From: Gordius sp. MW1
Lineage: Eukaryota > Nematomorpha > Gordioida > Gordea > Gordiidae
DNA: 64,000 bases
NCBI GenBank assembly: GCA_964036665.1
Contig: OZ038533.1
Location: 12,050,413 to 12,114,412, forward strand
Direction: 5' to 3'
This document shows, one piece after another, positions 25,131 through 62,270 of the stretch. The notes under the pieces were generated by a model, which did no database searches, had not been told where the DNA came from, and saw only the letters and a program-made list of their open reading frames with translations. Position 1 is the first letter of the stretch; each line of letters begins with the position of its first letter. A program made the position numbers and the translations under genes.

Positions 25131-27018
25131 AAACTCGGGCCTTCGGCCCTCGTGGGGAGGGGGAGAAGGGAAGGGGAAGGGGGGACGACTCATCTACACT
25201 CCGTATAAATGTATCATATTTGCTATGCAATTTATAGGCGAGAAAGGTGGGAAGGGGCGAGAATGCCTTTAGGGGGTATTAAATGCCTAATGATTAATTA
25301 ATTATTTATACAAATTTTTCATCACTTTGGCCAGTGGTGATATTTTCTAATGGTTAGCAAACAGTCAAATGGTATTAACAAGAACAAAATATTAATTTAA
25401 TTAAAAAAAAATTACTTTTAGTTTTAGGCTAAATTCTGAAACTACCCGCCCGATTCGCTCGAAACTTTACCCGTAGGTGCCCAGGGTGGCCAGGGGTAAA
25501 ATAGCTTTTAGGAACACGTAGGAAGAGGTAATTATTAATTTAATTTTTTCCCCTTTAAATATAGTAGGCCTCTCATATATATGTGGTATATAAACTTCCA
25601 AAATTAGTGAAGAAGGCCAATGGTCATTTTTTTCCATTGGTCTGCAGCCAGGACACGTTAAAAGTCGATATAAATACATAAGAGTCAAAAAAAAAAATTT
25701 CGATTCACACTTTGGCCAGTGGTCATTTTTTTCATTGGTCAGTACCAAGAGACAGTCTATTAATATATAAGAGCCAAAAATAACGAAAAAAATTTTTTGA
25801 TTAACATTTTGGCAAATGGTCATTTTTTTCCATTGGTCAGCAGCCAGGACACGTTAAAAGTCGATATAAATACATAAATGTCAAAAAAAATGAAAAAAAA
25901 AATTTCAATTCACACTTTGGCCAGTGATCATTTTTTCCATTGGTCAGTACCAAGAGACAGTCTATTAATATATAAGAGCCAAAAATAACGAAAAAAAATT
26001 TTTTGATCAACATTTTGGCCAATGGTCATTTTCTTCCATTGGTCAGCAGCCAGTGGACGGCCAAAAAGCCATATTATCAATGGTAGTAACAAGAACAATA
26101 TATTAATAAAAAAAAATAACAAAAAAATTTGGCCCTCTTTGAGTATCGAACCAGCATTTAAGAATTTGACCTCGATGGGATTCGAACCCACATCAGTAGA
26201 GGCATAGGCTTTTGTAGGGGGGGGCACATGGACCCATATCAGTAGAGGCATAGGCTCTGTCGGGGGAGGGCATAGGGTAATTGTCAATGTTAGCCAAAAA
26301 AAACGAAAAAAATAATTTCGATTCACATTTTGGCCAATGGTCATTTTTTTCAATGGTCAGCAGCCAGCGGACGACCAAAAAGTTTTATTATCAATGGTAG
26401 TAACAGGAACAATCATAATAGTCAAAAAAAACGGAAAAAAAACTTGGATTCACATTTTGGTCAATGGTCATTTTTTTCATTGGTCAGCACCCAACGGACT
26501 GCCAAAAAGTCTTATTATCAATGGTAGTAACATGAACAATCATAAGAGTCAAAAAAAACTCCGGGATTCGACCCAAAAACTAGTTAAATTAACAAAAATT
26601 AAAAGTAAACAACGTGACAAGACATTCGGTGCAAGACAAGATCATTTTTTTCATTGGTCAGTAGCCAGCGGACGGCCAAAAAGTCATATTATCAATGTTA
26701 CAGTAAACAGTCAAAATTATTGGGGTTTAACAAACTATTTAAATTAAATAAATAAAATTTAAAGTAATAGCTCTTGCAGGATCCTAAAATTTCTTTTAGT
26801 TTAAAAAAGGGCTTAATTCTGAAACTACCGGCCCGATTCGCTCGAAACTTTACCCGTAGGTGCTCAGGGCAGCCAGGGGTAATTCTAACACAGCGAGGGA
26901 GATAGAGATGAGGGGTGGGGCACCTCTTATGTATTAATTTAAAAAATCGATAAAAAACAGTGAAGGGTAACGGACAACGAAAAATCAAAAACGAGCCCAT
27001 AAATTGCATAGCAATTAA
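25131..27018 (+). mobile_element. Composite repeat element, copy C1
   Basis: Left end AAACTCGGGCCTTCGGCCC (GGGCC-ttc-GGCCC hairpin), then a purine-rich tract and the conserved tgctatgcaatttat block. An array of the roughly 120-bp unit (ccaatggtcatt, cattggtcagcagccag, cggccaaaaagtc) follows at 25620-26715, then the gagggagatagagatgagg block. The right end is cccataaattgcatagcaattaa (hairpin AATTGCATAGCAATT). Copies C2-C6 share this order. This copy lacks a clear (ACGG)n run and contains tRNA-like B-box sequence near 26165-26185. A partial second right end follows at 27037-27174. All open frames are repeat translations. Confidence 0.75.
25436..25500. repeat. Dispersed 65-bp conserved block
   Basis: The block containing gattcgctcgaaactttac and cccgtaggtg recurs at 26815-26885 in the same orientation and inverted at 53400-53465. 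It is linked to the composite elements and always lies near the body unit. Function unknown. Confidence 0.6.
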
Positions 27019-27036
27019 TAATCTTATATATATTCT

Positions 27037-27174
27037 AACACAGCGAGGGAGATAGAGATGAGGGGTGGGGCACCTCTTATGTATTAATTTAAAAAATCGA
27101 TAAAAAACAGTGAAGGGTAATGGACAACGGACAATTAAAAATCAAAAACGAGCCCATAAATTGCATAGCAATTA
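27037..27174 (+). repeat. Extra partial right end of the composite element
   Basis: Direct duplication of 26889-27018: attctaacacagcgagggag through the terminal gcatagcaattaa. It probably arose by tandem duplication or a nested partial insertion. Confidence 0.75.
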
Positions 27175-27311
27175 AAAATTGCATATAATATTTTAACTAC
27201 CTTTTATACGTTTTTACACAAACCTATGAGGCTAAAAACTAATTTAAAACTTGGTAGGCGTCCCTTTCTTTGTGTTAAATTTATCATTTTAAGAATAAGG
27301 TTCCGTATACC

Positions 27312-27891
27312 TAGAGCCCTGCAAAATTGAATTTTATCGGCCCGAGCCCGAAACTTTTTTTTATTTTTTGCCCGAGCCCGATTTGTTTTTTTCACTCAGG
27401 CCCCACCCGAGCCCGGCCCGACTTTTGTAAAAATGTAAATTTGTACCAATTTTATTTCAAAATTACGTATCGCGAATATTATGTGATTTAAAATATGAAT
27501 AATTATGGTAAATAATACTCACTCTATTGTTCAAAATAGCTACCATTATTTTTGCTTTTAAGCTTAATCTACACACTATTGTTTTAAATATTTCATCATC
27601 ATTCATAGTCAAAGTCATACATAGCATAGATAGACCCACACGGCTAACCAAGATATTAATATGAGGTGGGGGGGGGGGTAGTAAAATTCTAAATATTTAT
27701 TTGTAGGGGGATTATCTTGTATTGTAATTATATTTTGGATTAATATTTATTCAAATTTTTTTTCGGGCCTCGGGTCGGGCTGGCCCATCAGGCCCGACCC
27801 AAGCCCGAGGCCCGATCAGTGTTTTAAAATTTGCCCGAGCCGGCCCGAAAGCCCGTCGGGCCGGGCCTCGGATGGCCCGTGCAGGGCTCTA
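27312..27891. mobile_element. 580-bp hAT-type element with perfect 8-bp target duplication
   Basis: TIRs TAGAGCCCTGCA and TGCAGGGCTCTA bound a 580-bp segment flanked by CGTATACC on both sides (27304-27311 and 27892-27899). Subterminal regions are rich in GGCCCGAGCCCG. No transposase is encoded, so it is non-autonomous. Confidence 0.92.
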
Positions 27892-28164
27892 CGTATACCC
27901 CACAAACCACGAGTCTGCTCAGGATTAGGATTGAGATTAGAAAACTGCAAAGTCACTTTTTTTCAACCCGAACCCGAAAGCGTTTAAATTTTTTCGAGAA
28001 GTGAGCAATTTAACAACTCTAACAGGCACACAAACAGATACGGGGGGGGAAGGGGGTTCAGGACTTAATGATGAAAAAAATTATATCAAACACGGTCCCC
28101 CTGCTAGTGATGCGGAAAAACCGAGAAAAATCTCGTCTCGTGAATTGAAAAATGGAGTCGAGAT

Positions 28165-28549
28165 TGGTGTCTCAAACCCCCCCCCCCCCGTCCTACTTCG
28201 GATAGTGATGATTTAAATTCTCCCCCCCCCCCCCCGACCTACTACTTATAACGATAATTTAATTACCAAACTTGATTTTAACTTTTCCCTTTCATCTTAA
28301 CCACCTTACCACAATTGAGGTCGACCTCGTAAAAACTTCTGTGGTGTTCAACCTAGACCCCCCCCCCACACACATACGTGCACATTTTTTTATCAATCGA
28401 TACGAACTCACGCATACGTGCACCATTATATATAATTATTATTAAAGTTAATATCCCTCCCTTTTAAGGGAGGGCCGAAATATTTGTAGTCAATAAACAT
28501 CGCCTTAGAAATAGAAATTCTAATAATAAATAAGTCTATTGACTTATAA
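28165..28549 (+). repeat. Left LTR (385 bp)
   Basis: About 385 bp and highly similar to the right LTR at 29526-29945, except for C-run lengths and an extra copy of the acgtgcaccattt motif in the right LTR. Begins TGGTGTCTC and ends GACTTATAA. Confidence 0.88.
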
Positions 28550-29525
28550 ATGGTGTCAGAAGATGTGGATAATTGAACCTTCGGCTACTAACCCCAAAGC
28601 AGAAATGTTGGAAATGCTTTAATTCTATTTTTTTTAATCGAACCATTCATTTAAGAGAAAACTCGATATCCTGATTCCGAGTATCAAACCTCAGAAAGGA
28701 AATATCCATCATTGCAATAAAAAAATTCTAAAATCAGATAGCAAAATTCTAGGAGCGAAGAGAAATCCCTCCATTTTTCTGAAAATTGGTAAACAAACAA
28801 ATAACCACCCAAACTGAAGCATACCTGAGTGTCAAACGATGAAAAATATATTCACAACAATTATTCGATACCTAGATATTATGTAAGATAAAGAACACAC
28901 ATGATTTGTTCACATATATTATTATATGACGTTTAAATTGTTATTCAACCCCTTTTATTCTTATTCATAATGTTACATATTTTTTCTTGATTATTATTTG
29001 GCGGGTGGAGAATGGCAATTGACAATGTAGGTATAAAAAAGTAAAAGAAAAAAGTGAAACGGTACAGCCTTTTGATAGATATTTAGTTTATATTGATTAT
29101 AATTTTGATTGAAGCTATTGCCCAGTGGTGCTTTACAGAGCTGGGACCACGTCCAGTTGCCATGCGTATAGAGCTGGGACCACGTCAAGTAGCCATGCGT
29201 ATAGAGCAGGGACGAGGTCCACTAGCCATGAAGTACCCCAACTGATTTATAATGCAGGATTTCATTAAGATCAGTTGCCATGAATCAGTTCCGAGGGCAA
29301 AAGCAGAACGATAAATTAAATGAATGGGCGTCAGCAATTGTGAAAAAATTGTATTGTTGGTTATACTTATGATTTATTTGAACTCTGATTAAGAAATATG
29401 GTAAATTGCCACCTCGACCTAAGTCCGCCTCAGTCTTTAAATGGCCTTCAACAACACTTGAAACCCCAATACCTTTATCGGAACATTAGGACTTTAAGTC
29501 GTTGACTTCTCGATAAAGGGGGAGG

Positions 29526-29945
29526 TGTTGTGTCTCAAACCCCCCCCCGTCCTACTTCGAATAGTGATGATTTAAATTCTCCCCCCCCCCCGACCTACTA
29601 CTTATAACGATAATTTAATTACCTAACTTGATTTTAACTTTTCCCTTTCATCTTAACCACCTTACCACAATTGAGGTCGATCTCGAAAAAACTTCTGTGG
29701 TGTTCAACCTAAACCCCCCCCCCCCCACACATACGTGCACCATTTATCAATCGATACGCACTCACACATACGTGCACCATTTTTTTATCAATCGATACGC
29801 ACTCACGCATACGTGCACCATTATATATAATTATTATTAAAGTTAATATCCCTCCCTTTTAAGGGAGGGCCGAAATATTTGTAGTCAATAAACATCGCCT
29901 TAGAGATAATAATTATAATATTAAATAAGTCCAATTGACTTATAA
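29526..29945 (+). repeat. Right LTR (420 bp)
   Basis: Begins TGTTGTGTCTC directly after the polypurine tract and ends GACTTATAA. It is longer than the left LTR because of tandem copies of an atacgtgcaccatt-type unit. Confidence 0.88.
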
Positions 29946-29950
29946 GAGAT

Positions 29951-30985
29951 CGACGAGAATTTTGATGTCGAGACGAGACGATACGAGATTTTCTCGGCGA
30001 GATCTCGACTTTTCATTGACCGTTAGGTTTTAGTAAATTATTGTGTATTTTAAATTATATTTAAGGTATTAAGTGTAAATCAATATGTATGGAATATATT
30101 TGATATTAAAAAAATTCCCAAATGTAGTAAATATTATATTTTTGCAAAAAAATTAAAATTTGGCAATTTTACCTAAGTGTGGTTGATTTTTGTCATACAT
30201 TTAAATACGTACTCGTTAATTTAAAGTTTAAAACCTTATGTTCTTAATTCTATAATAATGCTGCTTTTATTGTTGTTTTTACAACGTTTTAATTTGTGCA
30301 ACTAGTTATCAATTCTGTAAATAATAATAACATCATTAAATGTCACTCGCACTATGTGGTTTATAGCGCTATAGTAAACATGCAATAATCACTATGGGCT
30401 ATAATTGATGATGGTTATATTATATTAATGGACTTAAACATTTGCCTTAAACATGTTAAGGTCTACTTTGAAGCATTAGCAAAGGTTAATAAAGGGTCTC
30501 ATTTTGCTCAATTATGCAACTAAATCAACTATAAGCGAACTTATAATTTTCAAAGTCCATTTATAGTTGACAGACACAGTGAATTTGATACAAATATTAT
30601 AATTTGCTATAACAATAAAATTTAATCTTTAATATTTTAAATTTATTTATAGTTTTTTTAGTCTGCACTTTTTATAGAAATGTTATCTTTATGAGTTAAT
30701 TCATATCTTTATATTGTCAATGAGATGTCGTGTCCCGCTAAATCTTTAAAAAGTTTGTGTATTAAAGTTTTTCCAAAAATATTAAATTTGCCATTTGGAT
30801 TTTTGAACACTTATTTATATTTTTAATAAAACAGGAGAAATTTTTATTCCGTATATATTTTTTTTTTAAAAGTCGAGACGAGACTTTTCTAGACCGAGAC
30901 GAGATCGAGATTTTCCTAATCGCTCCCGAGACGAGACTTTGTTTTCGAGACCGAGACGAGACGAGATCGAAACACTACCCCTGCC
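29951..30985. repeat. GAGACGA-rich element interrupted by the LTR insertion
   Basis: Clusters of gagacgagac occur at 29960-30015 and 30865-30972 in opposite arrangement, with related sequence left of the LTR element (28125-28160, ctcgtctcg). This suggests a TIR element of about 1 kb into which the LTR element inserted. The right end cgaaacacta at 30970-30979 would fit a hAT-type terminus. No coding potential seen in the AT-rich centre. Confidence 0.45.
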
Positions 30986-38957: not shown

Positions 38958-39374
38958 TCCAATGGTGTACTAGAAATCGGTTTTAAGACATAATCAGACA
39001 ACTCTGAACCAAACACATAAATTTTCCAAGGCTTGAGTGTTTCTGTATATTTTAACTGATAGGTTTAAAATCAAATAAAAATAGTGCAACTCATATTTCA
39101 ATCAATAAATTTAATGTGATTTTTATGCACATCACACAGCAGAGAAATTCATAAAAGGCAAGTCTTTTAGATTCCGTTTAAAAAAGTGGTTTGAGGTCCC
39201 TAAAACCAGCTATCTCGTTGGAACAATACCAAGAGGCCACGTCATCGTTGTTCAAGCAAAATATAATAGGATTAGAAGGAGCCGTCATAAATGACTTAGC
39301 CACCTTTCAACTTTGTCTCTTTTAATGTATATTCTTATTAATTGCTATGCAATTTATGGGCTCGTTTTTTGTTG

Positions 39375-39434
39375 TCCGTCCGTCCGTCTGTCCGTCCGTC
39401 TGTCTGTCTGTCCGTCTGTCTGTCTGTCCGTCCA
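39375..39434. repeat. (CCGT/CTGT)n microsatellite
   Basis: Tetranucleotide tract mixing CCGT and CTGT; its reverse complement (ACGG/ACAG)n occurs in C3 at 46226-46270 and a short version in C4 at 51485-51514. It always lies beside the hairpin right end of the composite element. Confidence 0.9.
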
Positions 39435-39859
39435 TCCCTATCTATTTGCATTGGGTATATTAGGTTATCGCTTTTTTAAATTAATGGATGAGAAAGAGGT
39501 GCCCCACCCCTCATCTCTATCTCCCTCGCTGTGTTATTTTTAGAATTAATGCATAATAGGTGCCCCACCCCTCATCTCTATATCGCTCGGTGTGTTATAT
39601 ATAAGATTTGTTAAATTATCTATTATATAATAAACATAAATAAAAGTTGTTTACTTTTAATTGCTATGCAATTTAACTAGTTATATCATAAACATAAATA
39701 AAAGTTGTTTACTTTTAATTGCTAGGCAATTTAACTAGTTTTTGTTATATAATAAACAGATAAAAGTTGTTTACTTTTAATGCTATGCAATTTAACTAGT
39801 TATATAATAAACATAAATAAAAGTTGTTTACTTTTTAATTGCTATGCAATTTAACTAGT

Positions 39860-40880
39860 TTTGGGGTTAGAATCCCGGAGTTTTTTTAACTCTTATGATT
39901 GTTCTTGTTACTATCATTGATAATAAGAATTTTTGGCCGTCCGCTGGCTGCTGACAATGAAAAAAATGACCATTGGCCATAATGTGAATCGAAATTATTT
40001 TTTTCGTTTTTTTTGACTATTATGATTGTTCCTGTTTCTACCATTGCTATTATGACTTTTTGGCCGTCCGCTGGCTGCTGACCAATGTTATATAATAAAC
40101 ATAAATAAAAGTTGTTTACTTTTAATTGCTATGCAATTTAACTAGTTTTTGGGTTAGAATCCCGGAGTTTTTTTGACTCTTATGATTGTTCTTGTTACTA
40201 TCATTGATAATAAGACTTTTTGGCCGTCCGTTGGCTGCTGACCAATGAAAAAAATGACCATTGGCCAAAATGTGAATCCGAGTTTATTTTTTCGTTTTTT
40301 TTTTGACTATTATGATTGTTCCTGTTACTACCATTGCTAATATGACTTTTTGGCCGTCCGCTGGCTCCTGACCGATTGAAAAAATGACCATTGGCCAAAA
40401 TGTGAATCGAAATTATTTTTTTCGTTTTTTTTTACTATTATGATTGTTCCTGTTCCTACCATTGCTATTATGACTTTTTGGCCGTTCGCTGGCTGCTGAC
40501 CAAAGGAATAAAATGACCATTGGCCAAAATGTGATTCGAAAACTTTTTTTTCGTTTTTTTTTTGACTATTATGAATTTATATCCACTTTTACCGTGTCCT
40601 GGCTGCTGACCAATGGAAAAAAATGACCATTGGCCAAAATGTGATTCGAAAATTTTTTTTTCGTTTTTTTTACTCTTATGAATTTATATCCACTTTTACC
40701 GTGTGCTGGCTGCTGACCAATGGAAAAAAATGACCATTGGCCAAAGTGAGCATCAAAATTTTTTTTTCCGTTTTTTTGGCTATCATTGACTTATAGAGTA
40801 TCTGTTGGTACTGACCAATAGAGAAAAAGTGACCATTGGCCAAATTTTTGATTTTTTTAATTAAAAATTGTTCATATTTA
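39860..40880 (-). repeat. Tandem array of about 120-bp units
   Basis: About eight units, each with tgaccattggccaaaatgtg, a T-rich tract, actattatgattgttcctg, accattgctattatgac and tttttggccgtccgctggct. The unit length is close to a multiple of three, so long repeat-translated frames arise. A 60-bp-unit segment interrupts it at 40085-40150. Confidence 0.85.
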
Positions 40881-42400: not shown

Positions 42401-43371
42401 CCTGGCCATCTGGCGAATTTGCTAATATTAGGCAACAAATGATCTAAAGTTAATCTAAAGTAAAGCAACATATAATATTAACACTAATTTTTGATTATTT
42501 TCTGTCAGGAATATAAATAATTCTGTTTTGCAATTATCTTTCAAGTTATATATCATTGGAACATACATACATACACTTAGGTTCTCCATTGTAACTTAAG
42601 CACACAAATTTTGTAAAGGTTAGTTTAATATTACTATATATTGCAATTCTAACAAAAAGTATTTTTCATCGTTTATGTAAGTTTCAATAAATGTAAAAAT
42701 AGACAAAATATCTCCTGTTTATAAATTATGATAATCTAAATTGTCAATATTATGTTTTTCCAGATCTTCCAATCGAAGGACGGTGGGGTGGAGAGGAGGG
42801 ATGGCGGGCGCGTAAAGGATTTATTTTCATCGTTTATGTAAGTTCTAAAAAATGTAAAAATAGACAAAATTCCTCCTGTTTATAAACTATGATAATTTAA
42901 ATCCTCTAAATTATGTTTTTCCAGATCTTCCAATTGAAGGACGGTGGGGTGGAGAGGAGGGATGGCGGGCGCATAAAGGATTTATTTTCATCGTTTATGT
43001 AAGTTTTAAAAATGTAAAAATAGACAAAATTTCTCCTGTTTATAAACTATGATAATCTAAATCCTCTAAATTATGTTTTTCCAGATCTTCCAATCGAAGG
43101 AATGTGGGGTGGAGAGGAGGGATGGCGGGCGCATAAAGGATTTATTTCATCGTTTATGTAAGTTTTAAAAAATGTAAAAAGTAGAACATATAGATATTAA
43201 TTGGTAGTTTTTTTCTTATTTAAATTTTTTATTTTTTTATTATTTTTAATAGGGCAAAACAACGTTTGCCGGGTCAGCTAGTAAATTATATATTATATAT
43301 ATATATATATATAAATAAGCACATTTTTTGCAATTATTATGACTTTTCGCCAGCTGCCCATTTCGCCAGAT
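42401..43371. mobile_element. Insertion in the left LTR, with Helitron-type 3' end
   Basis: The inserted segment carries mirrored words near both edges (catctggcgaa at about 42409-42420; ttcgccagatg at about 43362-43372). Inside it are three copies of a roughly 160-170-bp unit (42670-43160). These are followed by ggcaaaacaacgtttgcc and then gggtcagctag at about 43254-43282. A short hairpin closely followed by CTAG and then T is the classic 3' end of Helitrons. The 5' TC end was not located. Confidence 0.6.
42670..43160. repeat. Three tandem units of about 165 bp
   Basis: Each unit contains ccagatcttccaatcgaagg, a ggtggggtggagaggaggga stretch, and tttcatcgtttatgtaagtt. Units are highly similar. 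Position just before a hairpin-CTAG end fits the tandem repeats found in non-autonomous Helitrons. Confidence 0.85.
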
Positions 43372-44664: not shown

Positions 44665-46305
44665 AAACTCGGGCCTTCGGCCCTCGTGGGAAGGGGGAGA
44701 AGGGAAGGGAAGAGGGGAAGGGAAGAGGGGAAGGGAAGGGGGGACGACTCATCTGTACTTCGTATAAATGTATCATATTTGCTATGCAATTTATGGGCGA
44801 GAAAGGTGGGAAGGGGCGAGAATGCCTATAGGGGGGTATTAAATGCCTAATGATTAATTAATTATTTATACAAATTTTCCATTATAGGCAAAATGTAATA
44901 AAGGCAAAATGTAATATAGGCAAGGGTTAGGGTTAGATTTAGTGTTTGCATCTAGTTGCGTATTACATTAGTTTTTATGGCCTTTAGTGATTATGGGTCT
45001 AACAAACATTATATTATAAAACAACACAATGTTAAGAATTTGCAGAACTGTTGGGAGAAATTTTTTGTTGAATTTAAACAATTTTTAATTAAAAAAATCA
45101 AAAATTTGGTCAATGGTCACTTTTTCTCTATTGGTCAGTACCAACAGATACTCTATAAGTCAATGATAGCCAAAAAACGGAAAAAAAATTTTGATGCTCA
45201 CTTTGGCAAATGGTCATTTTTTCCATTGGTCAGCAGCCAGCACACGGTAAAAGTGGATATAAATTCATAAGAGTAAAAAAAACGAAAAAAAAATTTTCGA
45301 ATCACATTTTGGCCAATGGTCATTTTTTTCCATTGGTCAGCAGCCAGGACACGGTAAAAGTGGATATAAATTCATAATAGTCAAAAAAAAACGAAAAAAA
45401 AGTTTTCGAATCACATTTTGGCCAATAGTCATTTTATTCCATTGGTCAGCAGCCAGCGGACGGCCAAAAAGTCATAATAGCAATGGTAGGAACAGGAACA
45501 ATCATAATAGTCAAAAAAAACGAAAAAAATAATTTCGATTCACATTTTGGCCAATGGTCATTTTTTCAATCGGTCAGGAGCCAGCGGACGGCCAAAAAGT
45601 CATAATAGCAATGGTAGTAACAGGAACAATCATAATAGTCAAAAAAAAACAAAAAAATAAACTCGGATTCACATTTTGGCCAATGGTCATTTTTTTTATT
45701 GGTCAGCAGCCAGCGGACGGCCAAAAATTCTTATTATCAATGATAGTAACAAGAACAATCATAAGAGTCAAAAAAAACTCCGGGATTCTAACCCCAAAAC
45801 TAGTTAAATTGCATAGCAATTAAAAAGTAAACAACTTTTATTTATGTTTATTATATAATTAGTTAAATTGCATAGCATTAAAAGTAAACAACTTTTATCT
45901 ATGTTTATTATATAACAAAAACTAGTTAAATTGCATAGCATTTAAAAGTAAACAACTTTTATTTATGTTTATTATATAACTAGTTAAATTGCATAGCAAT
46001 TAAAAGTAAACAACTTTATTTATGTTTATTATATAATAGATAATTTAACAAATCTTATATATAACACACCGAGAGAGATAGAGATGAGGGGTGGGGCACC
46101 TCTTATGCATTAATTCAAAAAATAACACAGCGAGGGAGATAGAGATGAGGGGTGGGGCACCTCTTTCTCATCCATTAATTTAAAAAAGCGATAACCTAAT
46201 ATACCCAATGCAAATAGATAGGGATGGACGGACGGACGGACAGACAGACGGACGGACGGACGGACGGACAACAAAAAACGAGCCCATAAATTGCATAGCA
46301 ATTAA
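44665..46305 (+). mobile_element. Composite repeat element, copy C3 (best defined ends)
   Basis: Starts AAACTCGGGCCTTCGGCCC and ends gcatagcaattaa. Order: hairpin left end, purine-rich tract, telomere-like ggttagggttagat (44922-44937), a 105-residue frame, roughly 120-bp array (45105-45790), degenerate B-box-like ttctaaccccaaaac, roughly 60-bp array (45800-46045), two gagggagatagagatgagg blocks, (ACGG)n microsatellite (46226-46270), hairpin right end. Flanks read cgtaagaaa and taaacaaatt. The unoccupied sequence cgtaagaaataaacaaaa exists at 62889-62906 and inverted at 48334-48352. So C3 inserted between A and T without duplicating the target. Confidence 0.88.
44956..45270 (+). other. Element-borne 104-residue open frame, unknown
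   Basis: Near-identical to the frame at 40676-40993 on the minus strand; it starts in unique sequence and runs into the repeat array. No recognisable domain and no independent evidence for translation. Confidence 0.3.
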
Positions 46306-47734: not shown

Positions 47735-48437
47735 TGAATTTACAAGTGAGTTATTGTCTTATTGTCATAATATAACATTGTCTTTTAGACCTTAACAATG
47801 TACTAATGTCACCAAAACTTTGCCATGGCTATGGCAAGGCCCATCACCTAAAAAGTAAGTTTTAATTAGCTAATAATACACGAATTTAGAAATCAAAAGT
47901 CCTAAAGGCACTTAGAAAAGATCTGTTGTGGAAAACAGTGTTTAAAATGTTATGAACACAATTGTGAATGGTATATTATAATTTATTTAGGCATAATTAG
48001 TTTTTAGATATAAAGAATTATACAAGATATTTATATATAATTTAAATTTGTCTTGATTTCTCTATGAACGTTTAGGGAATATTAATATTTGAATTTGTTT
48101 CTAGCTTCATTTTGATTCCATGATGTTGTTTTCAAAAAGTATCTTCATTAATTATTAAACATACAAAAATTACCTAAATATATCCAATATATAAAAAATT
48201 AAACAAATACCATAGTCAGTTCTTATTTTTCCTTAGCTTCAATTAATTGATTCCAAAGAGAAATTCTTGAAAGAATAAAAAAAATGGATTGGATACACGA
48301 GATCGAAATTACAATAAGAAAACGTGATTAAGAAATTTTGTTTATTTCTTACGATTTGTGTTTTTCCAATTGCGAAAAACACGAATCGGCGCTTCGTTAT
48401 TTTTTGGATCGAATAAGAAAATGGAATGTCAGTGTGG
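47735..48437. repeat. Right arm of the long inverted repeat
   Basis: Reverse complement of 46306-46750 and then 44566-44664, skipping C3. This arm keeps the unoccupied C3 site (48334-48352). The arm ends where the 6.1-kb foldback element inserted (48438). Confidence 0.75.
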
Positions 48438-48904
48438 TAGTGTTGTAAAAAACCAAGGGTTTCTATTGGTCGCCTGCAAGCGTTGACGTTTATTTTCACC
48501 CAGCCTTATCAGTGTTAGGTGAATTTCCTTGGGAGAGCTTTGGCGTTTGGCGTTTTTGTAAAAAAGACCTAAAGCGTTCTGGGTGAATGTTTCGGGGTGA
48601 CCTTTGGCGTTTAGGTTCGGGTGTATTAAACACCTAAAGGGTGTGGGTGGATAATATTATTAACCTTTTGGTTTGGTTTTGGTCGTTTGGGGTGGGGCAA
48701 GCAAATATATCAATTTTAGGTAATAAACTTTTAATTTAAGAAAATAAAAATAGTTATATCATGACGTCACTGAGTTTAAACTTTTCCCATTGTGACGTCA
48801 TAATGAAAAGTATTTTAATTTATAATCTAATCTCTAGTAAATTACAGTTAATTATTATGCTTTGCTTATGCTGCATTAGAGAAGTAATGTTTTATTTATG
48901 AATA

Positions 48905-49725
48905 AAAGATGGCTAAAATCCGTTTAATGATTTCAAAAATTATTTTTTAGACATGCCAAAAATTTTATAAAAATTTTGCTTTGTAGAATCTTCTATAAAG
49001 ATGGCTAAAATCTGTTTAATGATTTCAAAATTTATTTTTTAGACATGCCAAAAATTTTATAAAAATCTATAAAAGGTGGGAAATTTCGCTTTATAGAATA
49101 TTCTATAATGATGGCTAAAATCTGTCTAATGATTTCAAAATTTATTTTTTAGACATGCTAAAAATTTTATAAAACTTTATAAAAGGTGGGAAATTTCGCT
49201 TTATAGAATCTTCTATATAGATGGCTAAAATCTGTTTAATGAATTCAAAATTTATTTTTTAAACATGCCAAAAATTTTATAAAAATCTATAAAAGGTGGG
49301 AAATTTCGCTTTATAGAATATTCTATAAAGATGGCTAAAATCTGTTTAATGATTTCAAAATTTATTTTTTAGACATGCCAAAAATTTTATTAAAATTTAT
49401 AAAAGGTGGGAAATTTCGCTTTATAGAATATTCTATAAAGATGGCTAAAATCTGTCTAATGATTTCAAAATTTATTTTTTAGACATGCCAAAAATTTTAT
49501 AAAACTTTATAAAAGGTGGGAAATTTCGCTTTGTAGAATCTTCTATATAGATGGCTAAAATCTGTTTAATGAATTCAAAATTTATTTTTTAGACATGCCA
49601 AAAATTTTATAAAAATTTATAAAAGGTGGGAAATTTCGCTTTGTAGAATCTTCTATATAGATGGCTAAAATCTGTTTAATGATTTCAAAATTTATTTTTT
49701 AGACATGCCAAAAATTTTATGAAAA
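48905..49725. repeat. Array of about 118-bp units, forward
   Basis: About seven units; each contains gatggctaaaatctgtttaa, tgatttcaaaatttattttt, agacatgccaaaaattttat and ggtgggaaatttcgctttgt. Units differ by a few bases, indicating recent amplification or homogenisation. Confidence 0.92.
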
Positions 49726-50424
49726 TAATATATATTTTTGAATTTTCTGCCTCAGGTTTGCTCTAATTATAGGCATAAAATTTAAACCACTTGACCAAAT
49801 AGGCAAATTAATATATTAATGAACGTATAAGAGTTGAAATATTATCCTTGCAAATTTTGACAAATTTATATTATAAAATATCTAAGTTATTTAAAGTTTG
49901 GGGTAATTCTAATTATTACCCCAAATACCATCCGTATTAGCATTTTTGACCCAACCTCTCAAGTGTTAAGAAAATAAACAAGGCATTTCCAAAAAGCATA
50001 TCATGCTATTCTGTTGACTTAGACCTCGCGTTTACAATGCTTATAAGGATCATAAAAAATATATAGCTACCATATGTGCTCGGACGCATAAGCTCTGTCA
50101 TAAAGAGGGGTAAAATGCTGAAATTAAGGAATATTAATTAGCTTGTTTACAACTTTACAACTAAGCTTAGCAATACGCTGGGAAAAACGAGCCAGCCGTT
50201 TTTACAACACTACTACAAATATAAAATAAAAGGGACATTATATAAATAATAAGTCTTTATCTTTTACAAGAGCCGAGGAATTCAAAATATATTTGAAATT
50301 AAATTTTGTGATTAATCGCAATTAATCTGCTTAGCAAATGTGTAAATTATAAAGTTAAACCATATTAAAATGTTCAAAAAAATTGTTACCACCTGGCTGA
50401 GGCAGAAAATTCAAAAATATATAT

Positions 50425-51365
50425 TTAAATAAATTTTCATAAAATTTTTGGCATGTCTAAAAAATAAATTTTGAAATCATTAAACAGATTTTAGCCATCT
50501 ATATAGAAGATTCTACAAAGCGAAATTTCCCACCTTTTATACATTTTTATAAAATTTTTGGCATGTCTAAATAATAAATTTTGAAATCATTAAACAGATT
50601 TTAGCCATCTATATAGAAGATTCTACAAAGCGAAATTTCCCACCTTTTATAAATTTTTATAAAATTTTTGGCATGTCTAAAAAATAAATTTTGAAATCAT
50701 TAAACAGATTTTAGCCATCTATATAGAAGATTCTACAAAGCGAAATTTCCCACCTTTTATAAATTTTTATAAAATTTTTGGCATGTCTAAAAAATAAATT
50801 TTGAAATCATTAAACAGATTTTAGCCATCTATATAGAAGATTCTACAAAGCGAAATTTCCCACCTTTTATAAATTTTTATAAAATTTTTGGCATGTCTAA
50901 AAAATAAATTTTGAAATCATTAAACAGATTTTAGCCATCTTTATAGAAGATTCTACAAAGCGAAATTTCCCACCTTTTATAAATTTTTATAAAATTTATG
51001 GCATGTCTAAAAAATAAATTTTGAAATCATTAAACAGATTTTAGCCATCTATATAGAAGATTCTACAAAGCGAAATTTCCCACCTTTTATAAAGTTTTAT
51101 AAAATTTTTAGCATGTCTAAAAAATAAATTTTGAAATCATTAGACAGATTTTAGCCATCATTATAGAATATTCTATAAAGCGAAATTTCCCACCTTTTAT
51201 AGATTTTTATAAAATTTTTGGCATGTCTAAAAAATAAATTTTGAAATCATTAAACAGATTTTAGCCATCTTTATAGAAGATTCTACAAAGCAAAATTTTT
51301 ATAAAATTTTTGGCATGTCTAAAAAATAATTTTTGAAATCATTAAACGGATTTTAGCCATCTTTT
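50425..51365. repeat. Array of about 118-bp units, inverted
   Basis: About eight units in the orientation opposite to 48905-49725, so the two arrays could pair as very long hairpin arms. Variants such as the gcatgtctaa form are shared between both arrays, consistent with exchange or a palindromic duplication. Confidence 0.92.
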
Positions 51366-51446
51366 ATTCATAAATAAAACATTACTTCTCTAATGCAGCA
51401 TAAGCAAAGCATAATAATTAACTGTAATTTACTAGAGATTAGATTA

Positions 51447-54151
51447 TTAATTGCTATGCAATTTATGGGATCGTTTTTTGGTGTCCGTCCGTCGTCCGTC
51501 GTCCGTCGTCCGTTACCCTCCCTATCTATTTGCATTGGGTATATTAGGTTATCGCTTTTTTTAACTTAATGGATGAGAAAGAGGTGCCCCACCCCTCATC
51601 TCTATCTCCCTCGCTGTGTTATTTTTTGAATTAATGCATAAGAGGTGCCCCACCCCTCATCTCTATCTCTCTCGGTGTGTTATATATAAGATTTGTTAAA
51701 TTATCTATTATATAATAAACATAAATAAAAGTTGTTTACTTTTAATTGCTATGCAATTTAACTAGTTATATAATAAACATAAATAAAAGTTGTTTACTTT
51801 TAATTGCTATGCAATTTAACTAGTTTTGGTTATATAATAAATATAGATAAAAGTTGTTTACTTTTAATGCTATGCAATTTAACTAGTTATAAATAAACAT
51901 AAATAAAAGTTGTTTACTTTTTAATTGCTATGCAATTTAACTAGTTTTGGGGTTGGAATCCCGGAGTTTTTTTTGACTCTTATGATTGTTCTTGTTACTA
52001 TCATTGATAATAAGAATTTTTGGCCGTCCGCTGGCTGCTGACCAATGAAAAAAATGACCATTGGCCAAAATGTGAATCGAAATGATTTTTTTCGTTTTTT
52101 TTGACTATTATGATTGTTCCTGTTTCTACCATTGCTATTATGACTTTTTGGCCGTCCGCTGGCTGCTGACCAATGTTATATAATAAACATAAATAAAAGT
52201 TGTTTACTTTTAATTGCTATGCAATTTAACTAGTTTTTGGGTTAGAATCCCGGAGTTTTTTTTGACTTTTATGATTGTTCTTGTTACTATCATTGATAAT
52301 AAGACTTTTTGGCCGTCCGTTGGCTGCTGACCAATGAAAAAAATGACCATTGGCCAAAATGTGAATCCGAGTTTATTTTTTCGTTTTTTTTTTGACTATT
52401 ATGATTGTTCCTGTTACTACCATTGCTATTATGACTTTTTGGCCGTCCGCTGGCTCCTGACCGATGGAAAAAAATGACCATTGGCCAAAATGTGAATCGA
52501 AATTATTTTTTTCGTTTTTTTTGACTATTATGATTGTTCCTGTTCCTACCATTGCTATTATGACTTTTTGGCCGTCCGCTGGCTGCTGACCAATGGAAAA
52601 AAATGACCATTGGCCAAAATGTGATTCGAAAATTTTTTTTTCGTTTTTTTTACTCTTGTGAATTTATATCCACTTTTACCGTGTGCTGGCTGCTGACCAA
52701 TGGAAAAAAATGACCATTGGCCAAAATGTGAATCCGAGTTTATTTTTTCGTTTTTTTTGACTATTATGATTGTTCCTGTTACTACCATTGCTATTATGAC
52801 TTTTTGGCCGTCCGCTGGCTCCTGACCGATGGAAAAAATGACCATTGGCCAAAATGTGATTCGAAAATTTTTTTTTTCGTTTTTTTTTGACTTATGAATT
52901 TATAACCACTTTTACCGTGTCCTGGCTGCTTACCAATGAAAAAAAATGACCATTGGCCAAATTTTATATATAACCTAAAAATTTATTATAGATGGTCTAA
53001 CAGACAGCCAACTATGTAATATATATTTTTAACCTTATAAATGCATATATATTTTTTTATTGGGTTAATATATTTCATTTAATTAGATTGTGATTTCATA
53101 GAAAACCTAAAAAGTAATATTTAAAAAAATAATATAGGTATTAGATTCTAATTTACGATAAAATATATCGATAGAAACTAACACAAAATTCGAAACCTCC
53201 TTCAAAGGTATAAGCATAGCCCGTTATTTCTAATTAAATTGAATCTACTATTAAACTCAAACACGAATTGTACTTTATTAGATGGCGCGCGTAAGTTTAT
53301 ATAATTAGTAAAATTTTTCTACGTGTCATAGATATTACACCGCGTGTGGCAGGGAAATGTCCGATATTTTTAAAATGAAAAGGTATTTTAGGAATCTGAA
53401 AAGGTTATTTTACCCCCGGCCGCCCTGGGCACCTACAGGTAAAGTTTCGAGCGAATCGGGCTGGTAGTTTAAGAATTTAGCCCTTTTTTAAAACTAAAAA
53501 AAACTTTTTTTTTAATTTTTTTTTTACATTAAATTAATATTTTGTTTTTGTTAATACCATTGATAATATGACTTTTTGACCGTCCGCTGGCTACTAACCG
53601 ACGAAATATATTGATTTTCTAAACATAAAACACAACTTTATTATTTCATCATCTATATAAATAACATAATAACTTCTACTATTTTAAAGCCAGCATGGTA
53701 TAGTGGTTATAGCGCAGGCTTGTGAACTGGAGGTGTGGGGTTCAAGTCAGGGAGGGGACAAATTTTTTTTTTTAATTTTTTTAAATTAAATTAATATTTG
53801 TTCGTGTTAATACCAATGATAATATGAATTTTTGACCGTCCGCTGGCTACTGACCAATAAAAAAATGACCATTGGCCAAATAAATCGAAATTTTTTTTCG
53901 TTTTTGAATTGGTTAACATTGATAATTACCCTATGTCCTCCCCTACAAGGGCCTATAACTAATTAACTAATTATTTTGCATCTAATACCCCCTATAGGCA
54001 TTCTCGCCCCTTCCCACCTTTCTCGCCCATAAATTGCATAGCAAATATGCTACGTTTATACGGAGTATAGAAGAGTTCCCCCTTCCCCTCTTCCCTTCCC
54101 CTACTCCCCTTCCCTTCTCCCCCTTCCCACGAGGGCCGAAGGCCCGAGTTT
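51447..54151 (-). mobile_element. Composite repeat element, copy C4, inside the foldback element
   Basis: Hairpin right end at 51447, shortened microsatellite at 51485-51514, roughly 60-bp array 51700-51945, roughly 120-bp array 51955-52960, unique AT-rich stretch with the conserved 65-bp block (53400-53465), tRNA-like head (53689-53760) with one body unit, and hairpin left end at 54132-54151. The foldback arm reads gatta before and taaattaaaatac after. The mirrored left arm (48805-48845) has these joined directly, so the insertion was between A and T with no target duplication. Confidence 0.85.
53689..53760 (+). tRNA. tRNA-His-like sequence (GTG), probably a SINE head or pseudogene
   Basis: 72 nt with tRNA layout: U at position 8, an A-box-like tggtatagtggtta, anticodon GTG at positions 34-36 (53722-53724) inside a TTGTGAA loop, and a B-box-like gggttcaagtc. 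The acceptor stem does not pair (GCCAGCA against GGGGACA) and the T stem is poor, so a functional tRNA is unlikely. It is followed by a T run and directly by one copy of the roughly 120-bp body unit, the structure of a tRNA-derived SINE. Confidence 0.55.
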
Positions 54152-55852: not shown

Positions 55853-55854
55853 AT

Positions 55855-56427: not shown

Positions 56428-58352
56428 TTAATTGCTATGCAATTTATGGGCTCGTTTTTGGTTGTCCGTTGATGTCCTCCCTATCTATTTGCATTGGGTT
56501 TATTAGGTTATCGATTTTTTAAATTAATGCATGAGAAAGAGGTGCCCCACCCCACCCCTCATCTCTATCTCCCTCGCTGTGTTATTTTTTAAATTAATGC
56601 ATAAGAGGTGCCCCACCCCTCATCTCTATCTCCCTCGCTTTCGGGCGGGGTCGGGTTTTAATTGCTACGTTAAATTAATGCATAAGTATATCTATTCGTT
56701 TTTGAATTGGGTAACATTGATATTAATTGCTATAATTACCCCACTACAAGGGTTTGGGTTAGAATCTCGGAGTTTTTTTAGACTCTTATGATTGTTCTTG
56801 TTACTACCATTGATAATAAGACATTTTGGCCGTCTGCTGGCTGCTGACCAATGAAAAATTGACCATTGGCCAAAATGTGAATCCAAGTTTATTTTTTCTC
56901 TTTTTTTTGACTATTATGATTGTTCCTGTTACTACCATTGCTAATACGACTTTTCGGCCGTCCACTGGCTGCTGACCAAAGAAAAAATGACCATTGGCCA
57001 ATATGTGAATCGAAAATATTTTTTTCGTTTTTTTTTACTATTATGATTGTTCCTGTTACTACCATTGCTATTATGACTTTTTGGCCGTCCGTTGGCTGCA
57101 GACCAATGAAAAAAATGACCATTGGCCAAAATGTGAATCCAAGATTTTTTCGTTTTATTTTGATTATTATGATTTTTCCTGTTACTACCATTGCTCTTAT
57201 GACTTTTTGGCCGTCCGCTGGCTGCTGACCGATGGAAAAAATGACCATTGGCCAAAATGTGATTCCAAGTTTTTTTTTCGTTTTAGTTTTGACTATTACG
57301 ATTGTTCTTGTTACTATCATTGATAATAAGACTTTTTGGCCGTCCGCTGGCTGCTGACCAATGAAAAAAATGACCATTGGCCAAAATGTGAATCCGAGTT
57401 TATTTTTTCGTTTTTTTTTGACTATTATGATTATTCCTGTTACTACCATTGCTATTATGACTTTTTGGCCGTCCGCTGGCTCCTGACCGATGGAAAAAAT
57501 GACCATTGGCTAAAATGTGAATCGAAAATATTTTTTTCGTTTTTTTTTACTATTATGATTGTTCCTGTTCCTACCATTGCTATTATGACTTTTTGGCCGT
57601 CCGCTGGCTGCTGACCAATGGAATAAAATGACCATTGGCCAAAATGTGATTCGAAAATTTTTTTTCTCGTTTTTTTTGACTATTATGAATTTATATCTAC
57701 TTTTACCGTGTCCTGGCTGCTGACCAATGGAATAAAATGACCATTGGCCAAAATGAAATTCGAATTTATTTTAACGTTTTTTTTACTCTTATGAATTTAT
57801 ATCCATTTTTACCGTGTGCTGGCTGCTGACCGATGGAAAAAAATGACCATTGGCCAAAGTGAGCATCAAATTTTTTTTCCGTTTTTTGGCTATCATTGAC
57901 TTATAGAGTATCTGTTAATACTGACCAATAGAGAAAAAATGACCATTCGCCAAATTTTTGATTTTTTAATTAAAAATTGTTCAAATTCAACAAAAATTTC
58001 TCCCAACAATTCTGCAAATTCTTAACATTGTGATGTTTTATAATATAATGTTTGTTAGACCCATAATCACTAAAGGCCGTAAAAACTAATGTAATACGCA
58101 ACTAGATGCAAACACTAAATCTAACCTTAACCCTTGCCTATATTACATTTTGCCTATAAATGGAAAATTTGTATAAATAATTAATTAATCATTAGGCATT
58201 TAATACCCCCCTATAGGCATTCTCGCCCCTTCCCACTTTTCTCGCCCATAAATTGCATAGCAAATATGATACATTTATAAGAAGTAAAAATGAGTCGTCC
58301 CCCCTTCCCTTCTCCCCTCCCCCTTCCCACTAGGGCCGAAGGCCCGAGTTTT
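56428..58352 (-). mobile_element. Composite repeat element, copy C5, inside piggyBac
   Basis: Right-end hairpin at 56428-56450, gaggtgcccc blocks, roughly 120-bp array 56755-57960, damaged 105-residue frame, telomere-like ctaaccttaaccc at 58122-58134, and hairpin left end ending cccgagttt at 58352. Removing it rejoins the piggyBac frame (ttgcaaggaattttt with ctaataatgg, reading LQGIFLIM), so insertion was in a short T run without target duplication. A 205-residue frame at 56889-57506 (minus) is a translation of the array. Confidence 0.85.
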
Positions 58353-58477
58353 TCTAATAATGGACACTCTAAAATCAAATCACCAAAACTTGGAAGATCT
58401 ATGGGAACATGATGGTTGTGGCATTACAATTTTTTAGCAATTATGTCAATTAATTACTTCAAGCTATTACTTAAAGC

Positions 58478-58553
58478 TAGAGTGTTAAATTGTTAACTTT
58501 CTTCAAACTGATGGTAGCTGGAGTTGAAGAAAGTTAGCAATTTAACAACTCTA
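58478..58553. mobile_element. 76-bp hAT MITE with 8-bp target duplication, inside piggyBac
   Basis: Ends TAGAGTGTTAAATTG and CAATTTAACAACTCTA, flanked by CTTAAAGC at 58470-58477 and 58554-58561. Removing the element and one octamer restores the piggyBac reading frame (KLLLKALRFQD). Confidence 0.92.
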
Positions 58554-59235
58554 CTTAAAGCTTTGAGGTTTCAAGATGCACCCGCATAAGATGAGAAAAA
58601 ATCATGACAAGGCACACATATTAGACAGATATTCAATTTGTTTTCAATATAAATTTACAATTAAATCCCCTAGTCATTATGTCACAGTCGATGAAATGCT
58701 TCCTGCTTTTTGTGGCAAATGTCCATTTAAACAATATATGCCAAATAAGCCATCCAAATATGTCATAAAATTTATTCCTTAGTAGATGCCAAAACTTTCT
58801 ATGTAATAAATTTAGAAATGTAAACAGGAATTCAACCAGAAGGGCCTTATAAACTTAGTAATAAGCCAGTTTCTAGACTAATCAAGCCAATCTCCCAAAC
58901 CAATAGGAATGTAACTATGGATAATTGGTTCTCCAGTTTTGAATTGACAAAACATTTATTGATAAACCACTCACTAACTTCTTGGCACCTGAAGAGAAAC
59001 AAAAGACAAATTTATCATAACTTTTGTCAAATAAGCCTGTATTGTCAAGCACATTTGCTTTTCAATTGGTTTCATATATACCAAAAAAGAACAAACAGGT
59101 AATATTACTATCTTCACAATATGACAATAAAATAGATCCAGTAACAGGCAACACTTTAAAGCTGGAAATTAAAACTTTTTATAATAACAAAGGGGGGAAT
59201 TGATGTTGTAGATCAACTCTGTCCAACCTATAAGT

Positions 59236-59489
59236 TGCAAGGGTGTCAAATTAACCAACCCTCATAGAATGTAGACTTAAAAATAATTTGTGTATGCCTA
59301 GCAATTTCAAGGAGTCTATCCAAAAAATCTTGAACACTAAGGATGAATCTCCTCCCAAAGGCTTAAAATGATCTAGCTTTTGTACAAGAGTCCAATATAA
59401 AAAAACCAAACTAACTTGTACTTTCTCCAAATTTGTTTGCTCAAGTAACATCACAGTATTGTGTAAAATATGTACATAGAAAATTTAAC
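59236..59489. other. Spacer between facing piggyBac copies
   Basis: The first and last roughly 40 bp (59213-59252 and 59484-59522) are still inverted copies of each other (ttgcaagggtgt). The middle is not recognised. Confidence 0.4.
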
Positions 59490-60740
59490 ACCCTTGCAAC
59501 ATTGTAGGTTGAACAGAACTACCACAGCAACTTTCTCTTTAGTCATGTTGTAAAAGGAAATAATTTCAACTTTAGAGCATTCCCTGTTGCTGGATCAATT
59601 TTGTTATTATATATGACTTGCTTATATTTTTTTGGTATATATGAAGCCATAATTAAATTCTCTTGAAAGGCAAATTTGCTTGACAATACAGGTTGCTTTT
59701 TTTGGCATAAATCTATAGGAATTTGCTTTTTGTTTTTTCCAAAATGGCTACCTTTGTTAACAAATAGCTTGTAAACAAATGTTTAATTAATTCATAGCTG
59801 GTGAAGTAACTGTCCATGGTCCCATTTCTATTAGATTTGGAGATTGGCTTAATAAGCCTGCACATCATATCAAAAGGCTTATTACTTAGTTGGTAAGAGC
59901 CTTCAGGCTGAATACCTGTATATTTCTAAGTTGATGTTTTAAAAAAGTTATGGCATCTAACAATGAATATATTTTTATGCCATATTTGGATGGCTTATTC
60001 GGCTTGTATTGCTTGAATGGACATTTGCCACGAAAAGCAGGAAGCATTTCATCTACTGTAACATACTGACCAGGTGAAAAAACAGCTTGTGAATTTATAT
60101 TGTTGAAAATCTGTCCAATATGGGTAGCCTTGTCATGAGCCTTTCTCTCATCTGTGTGGTTGCATCATAGCTGCGATTGATTGGCATAATAGCCCTTAAA
60201 ATTTCAATGCCATATCCATCTTGTCGCCATAAAATTTTCAAGTTTTGGTGATTTGATTTTAAAGTTCCCATTATTAGAAGTAAAGTATTGGTATTTAGCA
60301 AAGATATGCGCTTATTTGTGTGTGTTATAATGAGAAGAGATATATTGGGTGTAGAATAGTGCAAAACATTCTAAATGAGGATTTGCAGTTTTCCCCACTG
60401 CTTTCACTCCTGGCAAACAATGTTTTGAGATCGAGTTATTTTGGGGGTATATCAGTTTTGCTGCCATTTAGTACCATCCTCACCTGTAAATTTTATAATT
60501 AATCGAAATTAACTATCATATAGGTATTTTTTCTGTGCCAATTCCTCATAACTTAAATTAATATTTTCTCAGTGTCTGTATCATGTTCAGTAGTCAAAAC
60601 AATATCCTCTTCACTTGAAGTAATATTACATTCACCTAAGTGATGATATGGAATTTATGATATATTATGTATGCTATAAACATAATTTAAAACCAACTCT
60701 AACCTTCTGAGTTTGAAGTTGATGATTCCAAACAATCATA
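59490..60740 (-). pseudogene. piggyBac-like transposase, inverted copy
   Basis: On the minus strand from 60740: acidic YDCLESSTSNSEG and SSEEDIVLTTEHDTDTE, then GEDGTKWQQN, RSQNIV, HTNKRISLLNT, GTLKSNHQNLKILWRQDGYG, IEILRAIMPINRS, YVTVDEMLPAFRGKCPFKQY, GKNKKQIPIDLCQKKQPVLS and MASYIPKKYK, down to a decayed VDQLC-like site at about 59520. Frameshifts and stops make it inactive. It keeps sequence at the C5 site (60260-60285) in the unoccupied state. It faces the plus-strand copy across a 254-bp spacer, and both break at the same point. Confidence 0.85.
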
Positions 60741-60748
60741 GTATACAG

Positions 60749-61084
60749 TAGAAACCTGCACGGCCCGCGGACCGGGCTTCTGCTAAAAAATAAAACAATG
60801 GGCCGGCCTGGACGGGCCGTAATATAACTTAACGGGCTGGGCCATACTTAAGGCCCGTTAAACGCCCGTTACAAAATAAATTAGATGTACAAAAGAAGGT
60901 GTTTTTATAATGTTTTAATTTATAATTATTTTATGTATATAAAATTAACAAGAAAAATTGAATTTTATTTCCATCTTAGTTCATTAATATCTCAATCCGC
61001 ATTATAAGTGTTAAAGATAATTTATATACGTAAATTTTTATTACGGGCGGGCCGACTGACCTAAACAGGGCAGTTGCAGGTTTA
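60749..61084. mobile_element. 336-bp hAT-type element with perfect 8-bp target duplication
   Basis: Ends TAGAAACCTGCA and TGCAGGTTTA, flanked by GTATACAG on both sides (60741-60748 and 61085-61092). Subterminal GGCCCG-rich sequence as in the 27312-27891 family. No coding capacity. Confidence 0.9.
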
Positions 61085-61185
61085 GTATACAGTATTCATG
61101 TTAATATCTTATAAAAAGTTATACTTCCGTTCTGCAGCCATTTTTAAGTGATCAAACTATGCAAATATTTGTTTTTATAGGATTA

Positions 61186-62270
61186 TTAATTGATATGCAA
61201 TTTATGGGCTCGTTTTCGTTGTCCGTTCGCCCGTCCAACATGTATCTTAATTGCTGGTTCGAATCCCGGAGAGGGCAAATAAAATTGAAATTAATATATT
61301 GTTAAGACGGTCTCCTGGCTACTGACAATTGAATAAAATGACCATTGGCCAAAGTGTGAATCGAAATTTTTTTTCGTTTCTTATGTATTTATATCCTTTA
61401 TGACCGTCACTTAACTGCTGACCAATGGAAAAAATGACCATTGACTAAAGTGTATCAAATTTTTTCCTTCTCTATTTTAAATATAGACTATTTGGCCGTT
61501 TGCTGGCTACTGACCAATAAAAAAAATGACCACTGGCCAAAGTGAGATTAAAATCAAATTTTTTCTATAGATAGCCAGTACTTGGCAGTCTGCTGGCTAT
61601 TGACCAATGAAAAAAATGACCACTGGCCAAAGTGAGATTAAAATCGATTTTTTTCTAGATTTTAATTTAGGCTAGTTATTTGGCTGTCTGCTGACCATTA
61701 GAAAAAATGACCACTGGCCAAAGTGTATATCGCATTTTTTTTATATTATAATTATAGGCTATTTGGCCATCTGACCAATGGAAAAAATGACCAATGGCCA
61801 AGGTCTGGTTGGATTTTCATTTTTTTAATATCTTGTTTATACTATACATATGCGCATGGTTTGAATAGAGTCTATAGTCATAATTCAAATTATGGGTCGC
61901 CTACACCAAATTGTTTAAATTTCTACAGTATAAAAGAAATTCTAAATTAAAAGTTGTACGTTTTGGAAGGATGACTTTTGGCTTTTCCAAGGTCATACCC
62001 TCTATTTGCGTTCCTTTCGTCATTTTGATTAATTTAGAAGTTGATAAATAATAATGAATGAAAGAAAACCTATTCCTCAATAAATAAAGTATTAAATAAC
62101 TAATCATTTTGCATTTTATACCCTCCCCCCCCCATAGGCAGTCTCGCCCCTTCCCACCTTTCTCCCCCATAAATTGCATAGCAAATATACTACTATACGG
62201 AGTATAGATGAGGTTCGTTCCCCCTTTACTCCAGCCTCTCCCTCCCCTCTTCACTTCCCCCCCCCCTGGT
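61186..62270 (-). mobile_element. Composite repeat element, copy C6, divergent
   Basis: Right end ttaattgatatgcaatttat at 61186, a remnant of the microsatellite (cgttcgcccgtcc), then a B-box-like ggttcgaatcccgg at 61257-61270. About five divergent body units (tgaccattggcc, tgaccactggcc) lie at 61310-61810, and the tgcatagcaaatat and purine-rich blocks at 62100-62270. The left-end hairpin is lost. This looks like the oldest copy. Confidence 0.7.

Follow-up and report, generated by a model that had tools for sequence, protein, structure and literature searches.

A 64,000-nucleotide stretch of the Gordius sp. MW1 genome (the window; positions 12,050,413 to 12,114,412 of OZ038533.1, contig 7 of the 12 contigs of a 211.8 Mb genome) contains six related elements, C1 to C6, that are very probably HINEs (Helentron-associated interspersed elements), i.e. 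non-autonomous, deletion-derived copies of a Helentron (Helentron/Helitron2 type) of the same genome. We favor this assignment because the copies have a hairpin at either end, subterminal inverted repeats (subTIRs) that are asymmetric, a GTCY repeat, a satellite-like core and insertions without target duplication, and because an enzyme-bearing copy, A2, has the same ends together with a Rep protein of the RGSPH type and a PIF1 helicase. A preliminary description of this DNA had rightly pointed to non-autonomous Helitron-like elements and had proposed a search for a Rep/helicase element sharing either terminus; A2 shares both, and its ends and Helentron enzyme segments narrow the likeness to HINEs. 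The suggestion that the family may be new can stand at the family level only, and apart from any comparison with Repbase; the kind of element is known, and the family is an addition to the HINE/Helentron class. A text search of 5.39 million papers gave no match to its end sequence, which says little about Repbase, and the family may already have been described in the literature on Helentrons, HINEs and satellites.

Anatomy and abundance of the family

Throughout, the end with the AATTGC palindrome is taken as the 5′ end in the Helentron sense, which reverses the preliminary description, where it was the right terminus. From 5′ to 3′ a copy consists of TTAATTGCTATGCAATTTATGGG with its palindromic 5′ subterminal repeat (AATTGC-TAT-GCAATT), (GTCY)n in some copies, tandem arrays, an inverted copy of the 5′ repeat, a pyrimidine tract, the hairpin GGGCC-GAA-GGCCC and GAGT(TT). 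All six window copies start with TTAATTGCTATGCAATTTATGGG and have the palindromic 5′ subTIR within 2–4 nt of the 5′ end, with one mismatch in C6; this subTIR is also present in all 26 copies tabulated below (mismatched in one), although 20 of these had been picked by their match to C3. The segment ATTGCTATGCAATTTATGGGC near the 5′ end recurs inverted as GCCCATAAATTGCATAGCAAA ahead of the 3′ end, and this inverted 3′ subTIR is found in all six window copies (one mismatch in C1), 84–112 bp from the 3′ end if the limit assumed for C6 is accepted. Five of the six have the 3′ hairpin, which is absent from C6, and their intact 3′ termini read GGGCCGAAGGCCCGAG plus Ts; the 5-bp stem is perfect in 22 of 25 copies. 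Folded as DNA, the 5′ palindrome scores above most shuffled sequences (z −2.0, 9/200 equally good).

The six copies and their approximate positions had been recognized correctly in the preliminary description, as had the lack of canonical Helitron ends, a property of Helentron/Helitron2 elements as well: neither 5′ TC nor 3′ CTRR is present, the ends being TTAATTGC and CCCGAGT(TT). The common order of parts ascribed to all six holds in full for the 5′ palindrome and the inverted 3′ repeat, but for the hairpin and the GAGATAGAGATGAGG block in five copies only, the block occurring twice in each of them. A general (ACGG)n microsatellite has to be restricted to C2 and C3, which have at least three consecutive GTCY units, and to an interrupted CGTCCGT form in C4. 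The main array has a variable unit of ~90–130 bp, not a fixed one of 120 bp, and the second array, said to be usual, has units of 58–60 bp and is confined to C2, C3 and C4. With up to two mismatches, TGCTATGCAATTTAT occurs 28 times in the window, vs 0.80 expected and a maximum of four across 100 shuffles. A tandem core and an ACGG/GTCY microsatellite are also features of bivalve pearl elements and of fly mini-me elements, a likeness of general plan and not one drawn from sequence.

C1 (25131..27175, minus strand) runs from a 5′ end at 27175 to the 3′ hairpin end at 25131, and the first ~150 bp of its 5′ end are doubled (26882–27179). C2 (39338..41271, plus strand) presents in turn the 5′ palindrome, (GTCY)n at 39374–39437, a 58-bp array at 39616–39860, a ~107–130-bp array at 40168–40777, the 3′ subTIR and the 3′ hairpin, and the same order is found in C3 (44665..46305, minus; 58-bp array at 45798–46043) and in the 2.7 kb C4 (51447..54151, plus; 58-bp array at 51701–51946). 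C5 (56428..58351, plus) adjoins piggyBac-like sequence and has a single long 129-bp array without the 58-bp array, and C6 (61186..62270, plus) is degenerate, with a 90-bp array and neither the 3′ hairpin nor the GAGATAGAGATGAGG block.

Exact matches in the genome number 15,656 for TGCTATGCAATTTAT, 5,356 for the 27-nt 5′ end and 3,271 for the 21-nt 3′ end; the corresponding reversed control patterns gave 1, 0 and 0. At ~1.9 kb per copy the family would occupy, by a rough estimate, ~3–5% of the genome. A genome search with C3 returned 4,058 first-look candidates, and the 40 that were scored gave 86 matches, among them eight full-length ones besides C3 itself at 94–96% identity.

A Helentron with the same ends

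Two Helentron families, A and B, exist in the genome. Copy A2 of family A lies on contig 6 (3184501–3200000; loci L060 and L061) and measures 14.8 kb, from TTAATTGC at position 216 to GAGTT near 14985. Its termini are as in C2 and C4, starting with TTAATTGCTATGCAATTTATGGGATCGTTTTTTGGTGTCCGTCCGTCC and ending with CGCCCATAAATTGCATAGCAAAT...CACGAGGGCCGAAGGCCCGAGTT, and it includes the HINE array at 452–1391. The open reading frames (ORFs) of A2 comprise a Rep-bearing one of 851 amino acids (aa) with the motif RGSPH, a 454-aa helicase and a 199-aa endonuclease-like one, and Pfam searches of the pieces found PF14214 and PF05970. C4 and A2 align at the two terminal parts only, which is the pattern expected of a deletion derivative. 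The joined flanks of A2 match contig 6 at 3259497–3259911 (1–400 of 400, 87%) and 3222636–3223021 (1–395, 86%), with 40 of 311 candidates scored, and since these nearby sites are without the 14.8 kb, A2 was inserted as a single unit.

A1 has the 5′ end of A2 ahead of the same ORFs (876 and 884 aa, with Pfam matches that include Rep and PIF1); its 3′ end is lost and a second HINE adjoins it. A3 has the 3′ end of A2, with a hairpin short of two bases, and upstream of A4 there is a HINE 3′ end in inverted orientation. A Rep search with a query of Helentron type gave 17 matches, of which 13 have RGSPHAH, one has RVSPHAH and three have no motif. The 13 read FKR(I/V)EFQHRGSPHAH, and an S before the P together with F-K-R ahead of the motif is the published Helentron signature (PMC4067079).

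Family B (contig 8: 4082501–4096500) has an open frame of 1,767 aa that includes DUF6570, Rep, PIF1 and Exo_endo_phos; the endonuclease scores 25.0 bits, above the cut-off. We set the family aside as the partner, as the 5′ end motif that it had at first seemed to share lies in a repeated upstream array. The frame of family A opens with ~12 tandem 60-bp (20-aa) repeats (L061:1253–2006) that are open in two frames.

Insertion target and insert-free sites

Flanks were tabulated for 26 copies, namely 20 from the genome at large, C1 to C5 and A2; C6 and A1 were excluded as their 3′ ends are missing. The 20 were taken from 21 with both ends, counted by eye among the C3 matches, and were chosen by a match to C3 from TTAATTGC to GAG, so that selection accounts in part for the invariance of those letters but not for that of the flanking ones. 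Position −4 is T in all 26 copies (p = 1.6e-12 at background) and position −3 is A in 19 and T in seven, never G or C, so that the dinucleotide ahead of the element, which the preliminary description had proposed to tabulate, is T-A in 19/26 and T-T in 7/26. The upstream flank is at background composition (152/208 A/T), positions +5 to +11 downstream are AT-rich (169/182 A/T), and GAG is followed by T in every copy and by TT in 25. A TA^T target followed on the 3′ side by AT-rich sequence is intermediate between what has been described for Helitrons and for Helentrons.

Insert-free sites are known for six copies (C3, C4, A2 and three genome copies, g14, g17 and g10), and all are compatible with TA^T. 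The two for C3 lie in the window at 48263..48426 (plus) and 62815..62943 (minus) and read GTTTA^TTTCTTACG, and those for C4 at 48743..48902 (minus), reading GATTA^TAAATT, and at 5110..5262 (minus), a more diverged site that reads GATTA^TAATAT and differs on the 3′ side. Four sites each are available for g14 (GAATA^TCATTACG), g17 (CATA^TATAAT) and A2 (AACTA^TATTCAG); of the A2 sites, L105 is clean, L104 and L106 have additional host bases on the 3′ side, and L107 is more diverged (75% identity). For g10 there are six, reading AATTTATATTTG. The aligner slipped in T-rich stretches (C3, C4 and two of the A2 sites), and those sites were read by eye. In C3, C4, A2, g14 and g17 the two sides overlap by at most 1–2 nt, T only, and a duplication is not required; with the 5′ end set at TTAATTGC, the 3′ terminus is GAGT in g14 and g17, GAGTT in A2 and GAGTTT in C3 and C4. 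The joined flanks of 19 copies were also searched, and two (g14 and g17) matched across the joint, with 40 of 2,070 candidates scored.

These readings bear out the earlier view that C3 and C4 are inserted between A and T without duplication, the junction being ambiguous by 2 nt of T for C3 and by 1 nt for C4, and consistent target duplications are not seen at the empty sites of the six copies, g10 being ambiguous. Three in-window empty sites had been proposed, of which those for C3 and C4 stand and that for C5 does not: its piggyBac-like comparator gives a good match only outward from the 3′ junction, the 5′ side aligns loosely and ~45 bp are missing beside the junction, and we dropped it as a base-level site.

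C4 adjoins one arm of a large inverted repeat (arms 48971–49726 and 50429–51298, with ~7 and ~8 copies of a 110-bp unit), and the C4 empty site adjoins the other. A tRNA-like stretch inside C4 at 53690–53760 gave no match with ARAGORN or Rfam.

Class of the family and possible origin of its arrays

Published accounts describe several systems that can be set beside the window copies. HINEs, exemplified by those of a mite and of Culex and by DINE-1 of Drosophila, have a palindromic 5′ subTIR that lies two nt from the terminus, an inverted 3′ subTIR and a 3′ palindrome, with tandem repeats in some, no target duplication and an origin as deletion derivatives of a same-genome Helentron, all as here, and the variable count of terminal Ts is shared with Helentrons (PMC4067079). 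They differ in that their target is TT, whereas here it is mostly TA^T, and in that the 3′ subTIR of the mite families is 38–60 bp from the 3′ end, compared with 84–112 bp and a position behind a pyrimidine tract here, where only GAGT(TT) follows the hairpin (PMC4067079). The closest anatomy, compared by description and not by sequence, is that of the satellite-carrying Cg_HINEs of Crassostrea gigas, which likewise have a 5′ subTIR, a GTCY microsatellite in several, a 3′ subTIR and palindrome, and satellite-like arrays, one or two per element, of constant orientation; their monomers are mostly 140–180 bp rather than 58 and 90–130 bp, a TT target is suggested for them, and the array-bearing enzyme copy is a feature of the present family (PMC7492417). 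Helitron2 and FoHeli elements share hairpins at both ends, asymmetric terminal inverted repeats (TIRs) and mostly no duplication, and FoHeli1/2 also have GAA between the hairpin stems. However, insertion follows TTTT in Helitron2 and TNAT in FoHeli1/2, and Helitron2 is described without the endonuclease that is present in family B (PMC3627910, PMC5148889).

Several points weigh against classing the family with HINEs. The target is mostly TA^T and not TT, which is a described preference and not a criterion in the published classification, and the 3′ subTIR lies farther from the 3′ end than in the mite families, which we treat as family variation and not as a defining trait. The up to 4 nt (TATT) that may be shared at the g10 sites might represent a short duplication, although this is ambiguous, and the 3′ hairpin folds as DNA no more strongly than shuffled sequences (z −0.71; 48/200 as good). 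The endonuclease of family A is weakly shown, as PF03372 is below the cut-off in A2 (18.5 vs 24.5 bits), where a ~3-kb insert lies in the endonuclease part, and Pfam gave no endonuclease in the 884-aa helicase piece of A1; the enzyme genes are broken in both of the family-A copies that were read through, A1 and A2. In A3 the 3.5 kb examined upstream did not contain the 5′ end, and for A4 to A6, of which limited portions were covered, no ends oriented as expected were seen. The assignment is slightly weakened because A3 to A6 do not show both ends, and also because the canonical Helitron loci discussed below are short and do not provide a fair control.

The presence of ~20-bp subterminal inverted repeats could suggest a miniature inverted-repeat transposable element (MITE) moved by a cut-and-paste DDE transposase, with the repeats representing worn TIRs. 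The two ends are unlike each other, however, no duplication of the target is required at the insert-free sites known for six copies, and what the enzyme-bearing copy with these ends encodes is a Rep-helicase; with neither the target duplication nor the symmetric TIRs of MITEs found in the family, we reject this origin as improbable in the extreme. Canonical Helitrons are abundant in the genome, and a genome search with PF14214 (714 candidates, 150 scored matches, 30 loci cut out) gave their motif RGLPH in 29 of the 30 loci and no clean motif in one. A non-autonomous relative of these would account for the A^T insertion of most copies, but it would be expected to have TC...CTRR ends, which are absent, and not the 5′ hairpin and subTIRs; both ends are held by the RGSPH copy A2, and neither was found in any of the 30 Rep loci, which at 3.5 kb may not reach the ends. 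RGSPH loci cut at 3.2–3.4 kb also show neither end at the same mismatch limits. We reject this relationship too, as very improbable.

A2 itself might be a chance composite in which an unrelated Helentron lies between two HINEs, as HINEs are dense in the genome, A1 has an adjoining second HINE and several family-A copies are without such ends in the stretches read. Against this, A2 was inserted as one unit, its 5′ arrangement is repeated in A1 and its 3′ arrangement in A3, and on these grounds a composite is quite improbable and was likewise rejected.

If the copies are HINEs, an A-type partner presumably mobilized them, and published work on Helitron, Helitron2 and Helentron elements (PMC3627910, PMC5148889) suggests how. 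The Rep (HUH-type) nuclease and PIF1 helicase of the partner would recognize the ends that it has in common with the HINEs, i.e. the 3′ hairpin with its pyrimidine tract, the 5′ palindrome and the inverted subterminal repeat pair, and would peel off one strand via rolling-circle replication. By analogy, the 3′ hairpin may serve as a stop or start signal and the inverted subTIR pair may open the 5′ hairpin. The single strand would then be joined, without target duplication, into T-A^T or in fewer cases T-T^T, at sites rich in A and T on the 3′ side.

A further possibility, though a rather unlikely one in our view, is that satellite arrays are built while the element replicates as a rolling circle, through repeated slippage or re-capture at the 5′ end, and are carried with it to thousands of sites. 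This is suggested by the 5′ palindrome, which is repeated within the 58-bp arrays of C2 to C4 (where TGCTATGCAATTTAA occurs internally five, four and five times, respectively), by the 5′ duplication of C1, and by the terminus motif, which reappears with some alteration in the 5′ arrays of family B (B1 and B2; L056, L057, L062 and L063). An abundant satellite-carrying HINE family tied to a same-genome Helentron whose coding copy already has the array offers a workable case for the origin and spread of satellite arrays by rolling-circle transposons.

Eight exact head-to-tail HINE junctions, GGCCCGAGTTATTAATTGC, were found at one chosen spacing (L122, L123, L124 and five others), vs 0.04 expected without target preference. 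In the three pairs that were read the neighbors fall short of near-identity, at 92, 85 and 91% for the best pieces of at least 200 bp, and we do not take the pairs as products of a single circle.

A canonical-looking Helitron 3′ end is located in the window at 42663–43281, with the hairpin GGCAAAACAACGTTTGCC and GGGTCAGCTAG followed by T, after a 161-bp tandem array. Elsewhere in the genome, the HINE copy g09 lies directly behind a very similar canonical-looking Helitron end.

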